30,683 nucleotides of DNA from a virus. A program made the translations under genes and the position numbers. The notes beneath the pieces are model-generated. The model ran no database searches. It saw only the letters and a program-made list of their open reading frames with translations, and was not told the origin of the DNA. The stretch lies in the IMG/VR virus record IMGVR_UViG_3300029448_000246, positions 1 through 30,683 of that record; one strand, written 5' to 3'. Shown piece after piece: positions 4,274 to 20,038 of this stretch (its first letter is position 1; each line of letters begins with the position of its first letter).

Positions 4274-5215
4274 ATGGCTATTAATAGAGGTAATATTGCT
4301 AAACAGCTTCTTCCGGGTTTAAATGCGATCTTTGGTATGGAATACGGATCAATAGAGGACGAACACGTTCCTTTGTTTGAAGTAGAAAATTCTGATAGAG
4401 CATTTGAGGAAGAAGTGTTATTCACTGGATTCGGTGAAGCACCAACTAAATCAGAGGGTGCTGCTGTTCAATTTGACTCAGCTACTGAATCTTTCACAAG
4501 TCGTTATTCACATGAGACAGTTGCTCTTGCTTTCGCAGTTACTGAGGAAGCAATGGAAGATAACTTGTATGATACTTTCGCAAAAGTACGTGCAAGAGGT
4601 CTTGCTAGAGCCATGGCTGCTACTAAACAAGTAAAAGCTGCGAATGTATTTAACAATGGTTTCAATGCTACATTTGCTGGTGGAGATGGACAACCGTTCT
4701 TCTCTAACAGTCACCCAATTATTACGGGTGGTGTACAGGACAACTTGTTAGCTGCATCGGACTTATCTGAAGCAACAGTGGAAACAGCTATGATTGCAAT
4801 ACAAGAAACTAAAGATGATAGAAATATCCTCATTGGTTCTCGTGCTGAATCATTACACATTCCACCTGCTTTACAATTTACTACTGAGAAAATCTTAGCA
4901 AGTACATTGTCAACTCAGATTGGTGTGAATCCAACTACAGCAGCAAACGGAGCTACAAACTTGAACGATGTTAATGCATTACGTTCAATGAGTATGCTAC
5001 CGGGTGGTTATTTTATAAATCATAGATTTACAGATGCAAATAACTACTTTTTTAAAACGGATGTTCCAAACGGAGCTAAAATGTTCGTAAGAGCACCGTT
5101 AGCTACTAAGATGGAGCCAGACTTTGATACTGGAAACTTGAGATTTAAAGCTAGAGAAAGATATAGCTTTGGTTTCAGTGACTGGAGATCATATTATGGT
5201 GCAAGTCCTGCTTAA
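4274..5215 (+). CDS. Major capsid protein, HK97 fold (Mu gpT-like)
   Basis: 313 aa. Family features I recognise are PFFSNSHPII in the middle, followed by a helical spine and the paired phrases ILIGSRAESLHIPPAL and LPGGYFINHR. The C-terminus FGFSDWRSYYG is also typical of gpT-type capsid proteins. The ribosome site AAGGAAGGAG is the strongest in the window and the gene is closed by its own terminator, as expected for the most abundant virion protein. It follows scaffold and decoration genes. No protease gene or extra delta domain is visible, so the scaffold is probably a separate, non-fused protein. Confidence 0.85.
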   Translation: MAINRGNIAKQLLPGLNAIFGMEYGSIEDEHVPLFEVENSDRAFEEEVLFTGFGEAPTKSEGAAVQFDSATESFTSRYSHETVALAFAVTEEAMEDNLYDTFAKVRARGLARAMAATKQVKAANVFNNGFNATFAGGDGQPFFSNSHPIITGGVQDNLLAASDLSEATVETAMIAIQETKDDRNILIGSRAESLHIPPALQFTTEKILASTLSTQIGVNPTTAANGATNLNDVNALRSMSMLPGGYFINHRFTDANNYFFKTDVPNGAKMFVRAPLATKMEPDFDTGNLRFKARERYSFGFSDWRSYYGASPA

Positions 5216-7162: not shown

Positions 7163-7615
7163 ATGGTAATGATAAGACGTAAAACGAAAAAGAAAACTGT
7201 AACAAAAGTAAAAAAACCTAATATGGCGGGAACTTCGTCTGTTATGTCAAAAACTAAAAAGAAAACGAACAGGCCTTCAGCTTCTTCAGCTGCACAAAAA
7301 AATAGAATATTTAATAAAAGAAAACAAAGGTCTGCAAATGATCAGAATCCTTTTACATCTTCTGCAAACCCTTCTGATATACCAAGAAAAACTAGAAAAA
7401 AAAGTATAGTTGATAAAAGTAAACGAGGTGTATCCACGAAAGCTAGAAAAACCCTTAAAGATGGATTTGCTATAGGCGATCAATATGGTAAAGCTTTTGG
7501 TCTAAAAAAAGGTGGTAAAGCCAAGATGATGAAAGCCGGTGGTAAAACTACTAAGTACATGGCTAGAGGTGGTAAAACATCTAAGTATATGTCTAAAGGT
7601 GGTAGAGCCAAGTAG
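7163..7615 (+). CDS. Very basic Lys-rich protein with C-terminal GGK repeats
   Basis: 150 aa, Lys/Arg/Ser-rich throughout and lacking a hydrophobic core. Residues about 117-150 contain imperfect tandem repeats of GGK-x-x-K-Y/M-M-x-x (GGKAKMMKA, GGKTTKYMAR, GGKTSKYMSK, GGRAK). AAAGGAG lies upstream; the ATGs at 7163 and 7169 are both usable. The gene overlaps the next start by one base. It looks like a disordered, DNA-neutralising or virion-interior protein. Function is inferred only from composition. Confidence 0.6.
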   Translation: MVMIRRKTKKKTVTKVKKPNMAGTSSVMSKTKKKTNRPSASSAAQKNRIFNKRKQRSANDQNPFTSSANPSDIPRKTRKKSIVDKSKRGVSTKARKTLKDGFAIGDQYGKAFGLKKGGKAKMMKAGGKTTKYMARGGKTSKYMSKGGRAK

Positions 7616-8283
7616 TGTCGTATCTCATTTCTAATATCCCACACTTTAAGTGTTGGGTGAGGAAAGAGTTCACACACAACCACCAAAAGTATCAAGGAGA
7701 ATTTATTCATGCCTTGGCTTTTGCAGTGAGCACTGTTCCAGACCGTTGTTTAGGATTTCAAGTGGTTTTTACAGGATGTGATGAAGGTCATCCCAATCCT
7801 CATGGTGGTGCTATGTGGGCACGAATACCAATTACGTCTTTAGTCGCAGATACTCCTTACGATGAATGGCCTCCCAATATGCAAACACATTTAGCTCAAC
7901 CTTGGGACTGTTCTAGCCGCAATCATGCCATCATTAAAATGGATCGAATTAGTTCAAGTCCGTGGTTGTGTAAAGTGGATGGAGAGCTCTATAATGGTAA
8001 ATATATGTTTACGGTTGACTATACAGACAGTTACATATCTGATGATCCAGCACAACACAAACAATCACATGTGTTGGAATTAACATCAGGACCTTATAAA
8101 GGTTGCATTGTAGCTTTACCAAACAATCGTGTACGTGTATCTAATCCTGCACTATGGGTTGTTGGAGAAGGACCACCAGACTTTGTACCGTCACAGTGGG
8201 AACACTCAGCAGAACAACACGATAGTTATATGGATTGGGAAAACACATTTAATAATTTGTATTCAGATAAGGACAAAAAATGA
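7615..8283 (+). CDS. Conserved phage protein of unknown function (WVRKEF-type)
   Basis: 222 aa from a GTG that shares one base with the preceding TAG. Unlike its neighbours it is a normal globular, mildly acidic protein. It opens with FKCWVRKEFTHNHQKYQGEF and has phrases such as GGAMWARIPITSL, QPWDCSSRNHAII and GKYMFTVDYTDSY. I recall similar proteins in many marine phages with no assigned role. Several His/Cys residues (GCDEGHPNPHGG) could bind metal. It overlaps the next gene by four bases (ATGA). Confidence 0.62.
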   Translation: MSYLISNIPHFKCWVRKEFTHNHQKYQGEFIHALAFAVSTVPDRCLGFQVVFTGCDEGHPNPHGGAMWARIPITSLVADTPYDEWPPNMQTHLAQPWDCSSRNHAIIKMDRISSSPWLCKVDGELYNGKYMFTVDYTDSYISDDPAQHKQSHVLELTSGPYKGCIVALPNNRVRVSNPALWVVGEGPPDFVPSQWEHSAEQHDSYMDWENTFNNLYSDKDKK

Positions 8284-9626: not shown

Positions 9627-10064
9627 ATGGCCATTACACAAGCTGTCTGTAATTCTTTTAAAACAGAAGTATTACAAGAAGGACATAATCTAAAAACCGA
9701 TACAATAAAGATTGCATTGTTTACAAGTGCAGCTTCTTTATCTGCCGGCACAACTGCTTATTCTACAAGTAACGAAGTAGTATCAAGTGGTTCTTATGCT
9801 CCGGGTGGAGGAACTCTTGCAGGTGCAACTATTTCATTAGGAGCTACATCAGCTTCGGGTGGTACAGCTATTATTGATTTTACAGATAAGTCTTTTACAA
9901 GTACAACATTCTCAGTTAGAGGAGCTTTAATTTATAATTCATCCAACAGTAATAAAGCTATTGCTGTGTTAAATTTTGGGTCTGATAAAGTATCGACTAA
10001 CGGTACATTTACAATATCATTCCCAGCTGCTGCTGCATCAACTGCTATTATTACACTTTCTTAA
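9627..10064 (+). CDS. Small virion structural protein (MAITQAVCNSFK family)
   Basis: 145 aa. It starts MAITQAVCNSFKTEVLQEG and continues with TDTIKIALFTSAASL, a Ser/Gly/Thr-rich beta domain and FSVRGALIYNSSN and AVLNFGSDK. This is a common family in marine and other tailed phages, usually reported as a virion protein. The all-beta pattern fits a decoration or tail-surface protein. Two bases separate it from the preceding gene. Confidence 0.68.
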   Translation: MAITQAVCNSFKTEVLQEGHNLKTDTIKIALFTSAASLSAGTTAYSTSNEVVSSGSYAPGGGTLAGATISLGATSASGGTAIIDFTDKSFTSTTFSVRGALIYNSSNSNKAIAVLNFGSDKVSTNGTFTISFPAAAASTAIITLS

Positions 10065-10081: not shown

Positions 10082-11065
10082 ATGTCTGTGGTTACAAGTG
10101 GATACAGTAGAAATGCATATGGTACCGGTGCTTGGAATAGAAGTGTCGTTGATCAATCTGTATCAGCTACACGAGTAAGTTTGCAATCTACAGTTCGTTC
10201 TGTAGGTATCTCGATTGCAGGCACTCATTTTGTCACCGGCAATAATATAACGTCAACCGTTCGTTCTGTTGCTATATCAATTGACTCACCTGTACAAGTA
10301 ACCGGAACACCAGTTAGCTTTACTCAAAGAAATGCAACTGTTAATCTTGTACAAACGGTTAATGCTACACGAGCACCCGTTAGTTTTGTAAGTCGTTCAG
10401 CCGAAGCTATTATTGGAGCTTTTGGCAAACCCACATCACTATCATCAAGCTTAACAGTAAGAAATGCATCAGCTGTATCGGGTCCGTTTGTAAATGTTAC
10501 AAGAGTTCCTGTGTCATTTACACTAAGAAACACGGCTCAAGGAGCAGGAGCTAACGTCGTATTTTACCCAGCTAAAACATTTAAAGTTACAGTAAAAAGT
10601 GTAGGAGGAGCTAACAAATACTTTATTGATGGAAAACAACAATATGGACTTAACTTATTTAAACGAAACAATTTATATATCTTTGACCAATCTGACAGCA
10701 CAAATTCTGGGCATCCTTTACGACTCAGTTTAACATCAAACGGCACTCATAGTGGAGGTGATCCTTTTACAGCTAATGTACAAACAGTTGGCACACCGGG
10801 ATCAGCTGGAGCTTATACTTCAGTATTTGTTTTGGTAGACGGTCCAACAAGTTTATACTATTATTGTTCAAGTCACTCTGGCATGGGAGGAGCTTTAAAT
10901 TTCCAACCTGCAATAATTGGAGGACTCGGATCTTTAGGAATAGCTGGAGATAGTAATTTAGTTGCAACTGGTGTATCAGCTAGATTTAGTGTTAGAGTAA
11001 GAGGTATATGGACACCGAAGGTATTTGGTGGTACAAACGAAATATGGAAAGCTAAACGATTATGA
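10082..11065 (+). CDS. Repeat-bearing virion protein with cupredoxin-like domain
   Basis: 327 aa. Residues about 25-160 hold five or six imperfect beta repeats built around TR-x-VSFT-x-RNA (for example TRAPVSFVSRSA, TRVPVSFTLRNT). Residues about 165-275 form a second domain with GHPLRLS (His211), PGSAGAYTSVFVLV and YYYCSSHSGMGG (Cys262, His265, Met268). This His...Cys-x2-His-x2-Met order is that of type-1 copper proteins. The C-terminus is beta-rich. A virion surface or tail role follows from the neighbours; copper binding is unproven. It overlaps the next gene by four bases (ATGA). Confidence 0.62.
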   Translation: MSVVTSGYSRNAYGTGAWNRSVVDQSVSATRVSLQSTVRSVGISIAGTHFVTGNNITSTVRSVAISIDSPVQVTGTPVSFTQRNATVNLVQTVNATRAPVSFVSRSAEAIIGAFGKPTSLSSSLTVRNASAVSGPFVNVTRVPVSFTLRNTAQGAGANVVFYPAKTFKVTVKSVGGANKYFIDGKQQYGLNLFKRNNLYIFDQSDSTNSGHPLRLSLTSNGTHSGGDPFTANVQTVGTPGSAGAYTSVFVLVDGPTSLYYYCSSHSGMGGALNFQPAIIGGLGSLGIAGDSNLVATGVSARFSVRVRGIWTPKVFGGTNEIWKAKRL

Positions 11066-11721
11066 GCACAACATACAATTTATTAGTTAATAGAATTAAA
11101 GTAACATCTGAAAATGATGAACCTGATTTTAATGCAGAGATACAACATTTTATATCGAGAGCAGAAGCTCGATTAATACGAGAGATTGACAGCTATGGAG
11201 TTGTTCAATATTCAACCTCTAATTTAACTAGTGGTGATCCTTTTATAACCAAACCTAACAATACATTAATTATTAAAAATTTAAATATAGTACGAGATGG
11301 AACTCGAATTAATCTATTACAAAAAACAGATGAGTTTCTAAATGATTACTGGCCACAAAGAACAAGCACAGGCATTCCAAGATATTATGCTAACTTTGGA
11401 TTTGATCGATTATTAATAGCTCCAACTCCTGTATCAGCTTTTAATTGTGAGATGTCTTACATCGTTCAACCCACGGCTGCAACGTCAGTTCACCAAGAGA
11501 ATTTCTTTACCGAATATTGTTCTAATGGTTTGTTCTATGCTAGTATGAAGGAAGCTTGTATGTTTATGAAAAATTATACAGGTTCTCAGGCATGGGAACA
11601 AGAATATCAAAGAGCCTTTACTGATTTATTAAATGAGTCTAGGAGAACAAGACAAGATGATATGAGAAATAATGCATCTCCTGCCGGAGGAGATAACACA
11701 TTAGTAAAAGGAAGTAATTAA
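11062..11721 (+). CDS. Phage head-tail adaptor (SU10-adaptor-like)
   Basis: 219 aa. A helical N-terminus includes FNAEIQHFISRAEARLIREID, then a strand region (LIIKNLNIVRDGTRINLLQKTDEFLNDYWP, residues about 70-100), a beta insertion and a helical C-terminus. This order is that of the adaptor proteins that form a ring under the portal in podovirus-type phages. Together with the gp4-like protein it would build the neck. The C-terminal tail (Asn/Gly-rich) is probably disordered. Translation is coupled to the previous gene. Confidence 0.68.
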   Translation: MSTTYNLLVNRIKVTSENDEPDFNAEIQHFISRAEARLIREIDSYGVVQYSTSNLTSGDPFITKPNNTLIIKNLNIVRDGTRINLLQKTDEFLNDYWPQRTSTGIPRYYANFGFDRLLIAPTPVSAFNCEMSYIVQPTAATSVHQENFFTEYCSNGLFYASMKEACMFMKNYTGSQAWEQEYQRAFTDLLNESRRTRQDDMRNNASPAGGDNTLVKGSN

Positions 11722-18202: not shown

Positions 18203-20038
18203 ATGTCAACAGAGACTAGACTCCAACTTTTAAAACTTGACTTTGCTCCAGGGTTTCATAGAGAGTCAACTCAATATGCTGAACAAGGTAAATGGTATGA
18301 TGGCAATAGAGTTAGATTTAGAGCAGGTAAACCTGAGAATATAGGAGGTTGGAACTTTAAAGTTACTGATGCTTTTATAGGAACATCAAGAGATTTAATT
18401 AGTTGGGAAGATAATGACACATTAAAGAGAGCAGCTTTTGCAACTGAATCTAAACTCTATACTTATTTTGGTGGTGTCAATTATGATATTACTCCAATTG
18501 TTTCTACTGTTACTGCTACTAATAAACTGACTACTACATCAGGTAGTATGAAAGTTATTTGTTCTGTAGCAAATACAGTTGAGACTGGAGACTTTGTAGA
18601 GTTTACTTCAATGGCTGCAACAATAGGTGGTAATGTATTCTTTACAAGTGGTAGTAGTTTTGCAGTAAGTTCAGTTAATAGTAATTCATTTGAAATACTT
18701 ACATCAACAACTGCTGCATCTAGTCAAGCTGCTGCAGGAACTGTAACAGTTAATTTTTTATTACCTACAGGAACAAGTGAACAAGTTGTAGGTTTAGGTT
18801 GGAATGCAGGTTACTATGGACAAAGTACATATGGTACTGCAAGAGCAACTTCAGATATAAATATTTTATCAAGACAATGGAAACTTGATACATGGGGGGA
18901 AGATTTAATTGCAGGAGTTAGGGGTGGTAGAGTTTATTATTGGGAAACTTCAACAGGTATAAATAGTAGAGCAATAGAAGTATCAGCAGCTCCTAACACA
19001 AGCAATAGTTTAATTGTTTCACAAGAGGATAGACACCTTATTTGTTTAGGTACAAATGAACAAACAAGTGGTTCTTTTAATCCTATGTTAGTTAGATGGT
19101 CTAATCAAAATGATTTTAATAACTGGACACCTTCAGTAAGTTCTACATCAGGTGAAGTTATTTTAGGTTCAGGTAATTCAATTAGAACTGCAGCTAGAAG
19201 TAGAAATAATATTATTATTCTTACAGATAACTCTGCACATACTATGCAATTTATTGGACCACCTTTTACTTTTGGTTTTAATGAGATAGGTACAAACTGT
19301 GGTGCAGCAGGTGCTCATTCAGCAGTTGACTTTGATGGTAGAGTTTACTGGATGGGTAGTGCAAACTTTTATGTATTTGATGGTACAGTTAAAAACTTAC
19401 CTTGTACTGTAAGAAGATTTGTTTTTGATGATATTAATCTTGACCAAGCTGATAAGATATATGCAGGAGTTAATTCACAATTTAAAGAAGTAACTTGGTT
19501 ATATCCTTCAGCAAGTTCAACTGAATGTGATAAGTATGTAACTTATAATCCTAATGAAAACTATTGGGTTTATGGAGATACTCACTTTACTACCTTTGAA
19601 GATAAAGGAGTATTTGGTAATACAATTACTAATGGAGTTGAATCAAGCACTACGTTTTCTTATTTATATGATAATGAACCTGAAGGAATTTATACTGCTA
19701 ATGGTAGTAAAATAGAATCATTCTTAGAGTCAAGTGATTTTGATATGGCTGAAGGTAATGATGTAATGTTTATTGACAGGATGGTCCCAGATATAAATAT
19801 ACAAAATGAAACTGAAGGAACTTCTGGTAAGATTAATTTACAATTAACAACCAAACAATATCCTAATGCTACACAAGCAATATTGAAAGGACCTTTTGAT
19901 GTTAGTGCTACAACTGAAAAAGTTTCAATGAGGGCAAGGGGAAGACAAGCGAAGATAAGGGTGGGTACTTCTACGTCTGGGACTAAATGGCAGTATGGTA
20001 CGATACGTTTAGATATTGGTAAAGATGGTATGAGATAA
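18203..20038 (+). CDS. P22 gp10-like tail hub / packaged DNA stabilisation protein
   Basis: 611 aa. The start FAPGFHRESTQYAEQGKWYDGNRVRFRAGKPENIGGW and repeated blades (LISWEDNDTLKRAAFATESKLYTYFGG, RVYYWETSTG, RVYWMGSANFYVFDG) indicate a beta-propeller hub. The phrases NMARWSNQNDF-like LVRWSNQNDFNNWTP and FIGPPFTFGFNEIG are typical of marine podovirus hub proteins. In P22 the equivalent plugs the tail channel and holds the DNA in. The length is a little above P22 gp10 (472), as in marine relatives. Its last base overlaps the next ATG. Confidence 0.75.
   Translation: MSTETRLQLLKLDFAPGFHRESTQYAEQGKWYDGNRVRFRAGKPENIGGWNFKVTDAFIGTSRDLISWEDNDTLKRAAFATESKLYTYFGGVNYDITPIVSTVTATNKLTTTSGSMKVICSVANTVETGDFVEFTSMAATIGGNVFFTSGSSFAVSSVNSNSFEILTSTTAASSQAAAGTVTVNFLLPTGTSEQVVGLGWNAGYYGQSTYGTARATSDINILSRQWKLDTWGEDLIAGVRGGRVYYWETSTGINSRAIEVSAAPNTSNSLIVSQEDRHLICLGTNEQTSGSFNPMLVRWSNQNDFNNWTPSVSSTSGEVILGSGNSIRTAARSRNNIIILTDNSAHTMQFIGPPFTFGFNEIGTNCGAAGAHSAVDFDGRVYWMGSANFYVFDGTVKNLPCTVRRFVFDDINLDQADKIYAGVNSQFKEVTWLYPSASSTECDKYVTYNPNENYWVYGDTHFTTFEDKGVFGNTITNGVESSTTFSYLYDNEPEGIYTANGSKIESFLESSDFDMAEGNDVMFIDRMVPDINIQNETEGTSGKINLQLTTKQYPNATQAILKGPFDVSATTEKVSMRARGRQAKIRVGTSTSGTKWQYGTIRLDIGKDGMR

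Follow-up and report, generated by a model that had tools for sequence, protein, structure and literature searches.

The C-terminal half of the 327-residue protein encoded by open reading frame P0001 is, we judge with some assurance, a cupredoxin domain that contains a complete type-1 site composed of His211, Cys262, His265 and the axial ligand Met268. P0001 (positions 10082..11065, + strand) lies in a 30,683-base virus record, the whole of which is referred to here as the window. The case for the site draws on the sequence, the predicted fold, an alignment of the ligands with those of known cupredoxins and the joint conservation or loss of the ligands among relatives. The explanation that we favour, and consider somewhat likelier to hold than to fail, is that P0001 is a tail, neck or fibre protein whose cupredoxin domain is an extracellular module and holds a functional type-1 metal site. 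From its ligand set, the metal at this site would probably be copper.

The putative first ligand, His211 (codon 10712..10714, + strand), stands in the motif GHPLRLS, and the other three, the thiolate ligand Cys262 (10865..10867, +), His265 (10874..10876, +) and Met268 (10883..10885, +), all fall inside YYYCSSHSGMGG. All four were assigned by profile alignment and conservation. The loop reads C262-S-S-H265-S-G-M268, that is C-x2-H-x2-M, with H211 upstream, an arrangement that agrees with the type-1 order H...C-x(2-4)-H-x(2-5)-M, in which the axial residue is Met or Gln. The first-pass annotation of this DNA had the residues and their order right but gave the last spacing as His-x-Met, whereas the sequence has two residues between His265 and Met268. 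P0001 contains four histidines (positions 49, 211, 223 and 265), none of them in an HxH motif, and its sole cysteine and sole internal methionine are both proposed ligands. Among 20000 letter shuffles of P0001, none produced the exact pattern H-x(25-70)-C-x2-H-x2-M and six produced a looser version of it; these shuffles, together with the conservation of the ligands among relatives, rule out a chance motif. That conservation, on which the earlier suggestion of a copper site had been made to depend, carries more weight than the shuffles and is borne out: none of the four residues varies across the 15 rows of alignment A5 (13 full-length relatives, one partial relative, L019, and the window copy), and they recur together in most of the broader sample described below.

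The cupredoxin-like domain itself spans residues 162-276 (10565..10909, +; profile match E 1.9e-52). It is preceded by an N-terminal part (residues 1-155; 10082..10546, +) made of degenerate short beta repeats that close in 'SFxxRN'-like turns; this part returned no family matches, and its sequence suggests that it probably serves as a stalk or attachment region. The C-terminal tail (residues 277-327; 10910..11062, +) is repeat-like and, in alignment A5, ends in a conserved RGIW...KVFGG...WKAK stretch. Read by eye, P0001 has neither a signal peptide nor the layout of an exported single-domain protein, as it starts with MSVVTSGYSRN and is a 327-residue protein of virion type.

To obtain a picture of the domain, residues 160-280 were modelled with AlphaFold2 from an alignment of 76 relatives (A4), which yielded nine strands with a mean pLDDT of 95.0 and a pTM of 0.88, in keeping with the beta-rich domain proposed earlier; prediction of full-length P0001 gave a pLDDT of 31.8. 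The model displays the Greek-key beta-sandwich of the cupredoxin superfamily, which has seven to eight strands. His211 lies just before the strand at model residues 54-57, and the Cys-His-Met loop connects the last two strands (98-103 and 111-116). A Foldseek search of the PDB at E <= 0.001 returned 12 matches, 11 of which are rusticyanin and copper nitrite reductase; the top matches comprise rusticyanin, the cupredoxin domain of NirK, laccases and amicyanin-loop variants, with modest TM-scores of 0.4-0.56. The twelfth match, also among the best, is Shewanella SO1698 (PDB 3njm and relatives), which is named an aspartic peptidase. With VIA-align, cupredoxin-fold copper proteins accounted for 50 of the 50 matches listed (Z 7.8-10.0, where Z below 8 may reflect a common arrangement). 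Nitrite reductase 2dv6 ranked first through its first cupredoxin domain, with 102 residues aligned at Z 10.0 and rmsd 3.0, and purple cupredoxin 5fc9 aligned at Z 7.8. The structural comparison proposed with the original suggestion therefore came out in its favour, the predicted fold being that of a cupredoxin.

Sequence searches place the family nearer to known copper proteins than P0001 alone would indicate. P0001 matched nothing in Pfam (no PF00127 match at E 1) or NCBIfam, and phmmer found 0 matches to it in the PDB. The domain profile matched the PDB weakly, with copper nitrite reductase and pseudoazurin at the top (E 0.055 and 0.056) and antibodies ranking lower. Among the 76 members of A4, however, 11 match PF00127 at E <= 0.1 (best 2.2e-5), and NCBIfam models for amicyanin, plastocyanin and pseudoazurin match two (best 1.9e-5), three (best 6.2e-5) and one of them, respectively. 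Two relatives exceed the PF00127 cut-off of 21.2 bits, namely a phage protein with six copies of the domain (L258, 24.2 bits) and a Woeseiaceae protein (L352, 24 bits); by these sequence scores the cut-off is reached by the family and not by P0001. PF25489 matches were also seen in some relatives. When A4 was aligned by hhalign with 29 bacterial PF00127 domains, drawn from 60 genomes and three loci, the probability was 84% (E 7e-6), short of near-certainty, and the score 35.5, whereas none of 50 column-shuffled controls scored above 14.4; H, C, H and M came into register with the four ligand columns. With a smaller set, made up of 12 short domains, the probability fell to 33.5% and the first His did not line up.

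An initial count of 181 of 186 distinct domains with H, C, H and M had been made with patterns that contain the ligands; an artefact of such patterns was set aside by sampling viral contigs with three DNA motifs covering ligand-free parts of the domain, which avoids circularity. The first 80 loci listed from this sampling comprised 71 with C-x2-H-x2-M and the upstream His, three with C-x2-H-x3-M, two with Tyr jointly in place of H, H and M (L258 and L298), three cut at a contig end and one that is unrelated. The full three-motif sample, taken in scan order and hence no census, contained 438 distinct anchored stretches, from which two without a profile match were removed (L302, unrelated; L315, too short). 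Once identical domain sequences had been merged and 10 copies cut at contig ends set aside, 292 domains were counted.

All four residues are present in 262 of these 292 domains. For the set H211, C262 and H265, all three are kept in 265 domains, one in 11 and none in 16. Exactly two are kept in 0 of 292, against approximately 59 expected under independence, a figure that serves as a yardstick only since the 292 are not independent lineages. The domains without the full HCHM set are also unevenly spread, 24 of the 30 belonging to one loose similarity cluster and the remainder to four, and the alignment of some ligand losers, L520 among them, is poor. The ligands would not stand out by conservation alone, because the columns of G75, G78 and F39 exceed them in conservation. 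By contrast, when co-variation was ranked for the 308 pairs that well-conserved columns form at a separation of three or more positions, the ligand pairs, six in all, took places 1, 2, 3, 4, 6 and 7. This joint retention and loss, a pattern read from sequences, suggests that phage particles carry a real metal site.

Where H, C and H are kept and the axial Met is replaced, the substitute is Gln in two domains (L533 and L523) and Lys in one (L508); Gln is the axial ligand of stellacyanin (PMC4059628). Among the 262 HCHM copies, the loop is C-x2-H-x2-M in 239 and C-x2-H-x3-M in 22, and in 248 the residue after the first His is Pro. No cysteine other than the ligand is present in 258 of the 262, so a disulphide role for the ligand Cys is unlikely. 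In 27 of the 292 copies (~9%), at most one of H, C and H is left and the domain still resides within a phage protein, which argues that the fold is usable without metal.

The domain is spread across phages of abundant marine bacteria. The earlier suggestion of a likeness to other marine phage proteins was well founded: in a tblastn search at E 1e-5, P0001 matched 65 of 50,697 phage records. A consensus-like relative used as the query matched 85 of the 50,697 and none of 72,556 plasmids. Named hosts of the matching phages are Synechococcus, Prochlorococcus, Pelagibacter and Methylophilales, and the proteins that carry the domain are annotated as virion structural, tail fibre, gp9-like connector, gp7-like baseplate or hypothetical proteins. 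Cultured phages with HCHM copies include cyanophage S-TIM5, the Pelagibacter phages Mosig, Baldr and HTVC028P, and the Methylophilales phage Melnitz. Among predicted viral structures in BFVD, 66 entries match the model at E 0.001, and none of the best 50 of these 66 is named a cupredoxin. The BFVD matches include short 'beta-sandwich proteins' from Pithovirus and Marseillevirus metagenome records (E 1e-5 to 1e-4).

Within 224 complete, distinct ORFs of viral contigs, the domain occurs once in 212, twice in 11 and six times in one, and copies on viral contigs lie in the N-terminal third (92), the middle (67) or the C-terminal third (81) of their ORFs. By this sequence evidence, the cupredoxin-like domain is a shuffled module of phage proteins. 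A free auxiliary electron carrier, of the phage-borne plastocyanin type, was considered and ruled out, because the domain occurs as a fused part of virion-type proteins. The ORF with six copies (L258, 691-10512, − strand) encodes a 3274-residue phage protein that also has YHYH matches (PF14240, four stretches); of its copies sampled by motif, two lack ligands. Five phage proteins of ~220-243 residues (L398, L266, L410, L406 and L528) combine an N-terminal CxxC...CxxC part resembling a zinc ribbon with a cupredoxin domain at the C-terminal end, giving two different putative metal sites in one protein. In cyanophage PSS2, a stand-alone gene of ~112 codons (L037, 3073-3411) encodes the domain alone, with Met kept and His, Cys and His absent.

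The surroundings of P0001 in the window are in keeping with a virion gene. It lies between a gene for a major-head-type protein (4274-5215, phrog_371) and one for a homologue of phage stabilization or tail needle-region proteins (18203..20038, +), amid tail-fibre and virion structural families. Its upstream neighbour (9627..10064, +) belongs to PHROG 644, a family of unknown function, and its downstream neighbour (11062..11721, +) to a virion structural or tail protein family (phrog_2941, phrog_10775). Of the PHROG families that match the domain, two are tail fibre families, one is a baseplate wedge-tail fibre connector and the other has no assigned function. On the basis of these matches and the gene order, P0001 would belong to the virion. 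The domain profile matched no other protein of the window. The best phage matches of the 18203-20038 protein are DSL-LC04 and the Pelagibacter phages HTVC027P and HTVC023P, a relationship that, at the sequence level, places the virus near podovirus-type pelagiphages. A gene at 7615-8283, 2.5 kb upstream of the cupredoxin gene, falls in PHROG 3704, which is labelled 'ferredoxin' (auxiliary/moron).

Copies on genome contigs were found at 31 loci with a pattern that includes the Cys and His. The two Pelagibacteraceae copies inspected belong to phage tail fibres whose N-terminal domain is of the T7-tail type. Others look cellular: a 161-residue SAR86 protein and two Woeseiaceae proteins of 622/623 residues have, by eye, a lipoprotein-like start, in which a hydrophobic stretch is followed by AACGGGG or SACGGGG. 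One of these Woeseiaceae proteins has cadherin/Ig repeats and a PF00127 match near the cut-off (20.4 versus 21.2 bits), a 1039-residue SAR86 carrier likewise has cadherin/Ig repeats, and two carriers of betaproteobacterial type contain DUF4214. On two Woeseiaceae contigs (L223, 3474-7293; L226, 3486-7317), a gene for a phenol-hydroxylase-type FAD monooxygenase comes after the lipoprotein-like cupredoxin gene. In a set of 398 genomes from a single phylum, just two have copies, so the domain appears to be rare in cells at large. Lipoprotein-like and cadherin-like surface proteins of marine bacteria are a likely source or sink of the phage copies.

P0001 shares with amicyanin, plastocyanin and pseudoazurin (PF00127; TIGR02657, TIGR02656 and TIGR02375) the predicted Greek-key beta-sandwich and the His...Cys-x2-His-x2-Met pattern, and its metal loop is as short as that of amicyanin. 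Those proteins are free periplasmic carriers, whereas the phage domain is found inside tail, fibre, baseplate or surface adhesin-like proteins. The azurin-type PF00127 domains compared here have Asn after the first His (GHNWVLS), where the phage copies mostly have Pro. The closest solved folds to the model (Z 8-10) are the cupredoxin domains of NirK, rusticyanin and two-domain laccases; P0001 differs from these in lacking trinuclear cluster ligands and an enzyme partner domain, and the metal-binding loop of NirK is far longer. Ig-like domains are shuffled among phage tail and fibre proteins. The cupredoxin-like domain has the same habit of a modular beta-sandwich, present in one to six copies in many unrelated virion proteins, but it belongs to another fold family and differs by its predicted metal site. 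The ephrin ectodomain also displays a cupredoxin fold at a surface, and both groups include copies without metal. P0001 and most phage copies differ from it in retaining the copper ligands and in having no disulphides; the non-conservative ligand replacement of ephrins is seen in the ligand-poor relatives, and P0001 has all four residues. HxH iron tail fibres (T4 gp37 and Alteromonas phage R22Y, PMC11705849) are likewise a case of metal in tail proteins, including those of marine phages. They use trimeric His clusters, whereas the predicted site of P0001 is a Cys-His2-Met site within a single chain.

Ephrins are the model for one alternative, in which the domain is a metal-free receptor-binding beta-sandwich for adhesion and the four residues are a remnant, kept merely for folding. 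In ephrins the cupredoxin fold has turned into a metal-free receptor-binding domain (PMC6485061), and the 27 ligand-poor phage copies, which include relatives of the stand-alone PSS2 protein with D, A, T and M at the four positions, may have taken a similar metal-free recognition route. A structural role does not predict, however, that H, C and H should be lost all or none and lead the co-variation, or that Met should give way to Gln at the axial position only, and every ligand is present in the window copy as well as in its 14 close relatives. The proposal that the motif is a fold remnant used for adhesion, made in the first-pass annotation, thus suits this minority of relatives and not the majority, and we regard it as rather unlikely for P0001.

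It is also improbable, in our estimation, that the site is type-1-like but natively holds Zn, Ni, Fe or Cu(I) only, for stability or host-surface binding with no electron transfer. Cys-His2-Met sites do take other metals in vitro. Non-copper metals in tails have a precedent, because iron at HxH motifs is known or proposed for the tail fibres of phages (PMC11705849). P0001 has no such motif, however, and its residue set, order, spacing and fold, together with the axial Gln variant, all fit copper cupredoxins. A virion copper site acting as a redox centre in infection, through electron exchange with the host envelope or by rendering oxidants or copper harmless at the host surface, seems very improbable. 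Its appeal is that the type-1 site looks intact by profile alignment and conservation and that most known cupredoxins work in electron transfer (PMC4059628); the window, however, offers no obvious partner except the PHROG 3704 gene labelled 'ferredoxin'.

With the favoured explanation, a working metal site on a virion protein, the apo-domain would be built into the particle in the host cytoplasm, and one copper ion would be taken up in the periplasm or, after release, in sea water. A cysteine in a particle assembled in the cytoplasm would meet scarce copper, which we counted against this explanation. Once bound, the metal would link the GHPL strand with the C-terminal loop and thereby stiffen the exposed beta-sandwich, creating a rigid module for the host surface that might be deployed in the manner of the Ig-like domains of phage tails. 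Such a mechanical latch in a fibre is plausible because copper alters the mechanical unfolding of azurin, where it sequesters part of the chain (PMC5792602). The latch could allow redox activity and would not require it. More tentatively, and with less confidence than we place in the site itself, a sizeable share of marine tailed phages might bear type-1 (blue-type) copper centres, loaded with metal, on the particle exterior, working in infection as a mechanical latch or as a redox contact with the host envelope.

Cupredoxins have so far been known as electron carriers and enzyme domains. Searches of the open-access literature found no account of cupredoxin domains in phage particles, although automatic superfamily annotation may exist in other databases; the fold itself is known, and its setting in the phage particle and the series of ligand losses appear to be new. 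A type-1 site under joint selection in the tails, fibres and baseplates of phages that infect the most abundant marine bacteria would place copper in a new setting, both extracellular and viral. It gives reason to test whether particle metals matter to infection and brings copper into the debate on iron in phage tails. The phage copies with and without ligands also provide a natural series for following how a metal protein can turn into an adhesion domain, as has been proposed for ephrins. If loaded copper centres prove to be widespread, phage particles would constitute a pool of copper-binding ligands in the ocean, a copper analogue of the 'Ferrojan' idea for iron.
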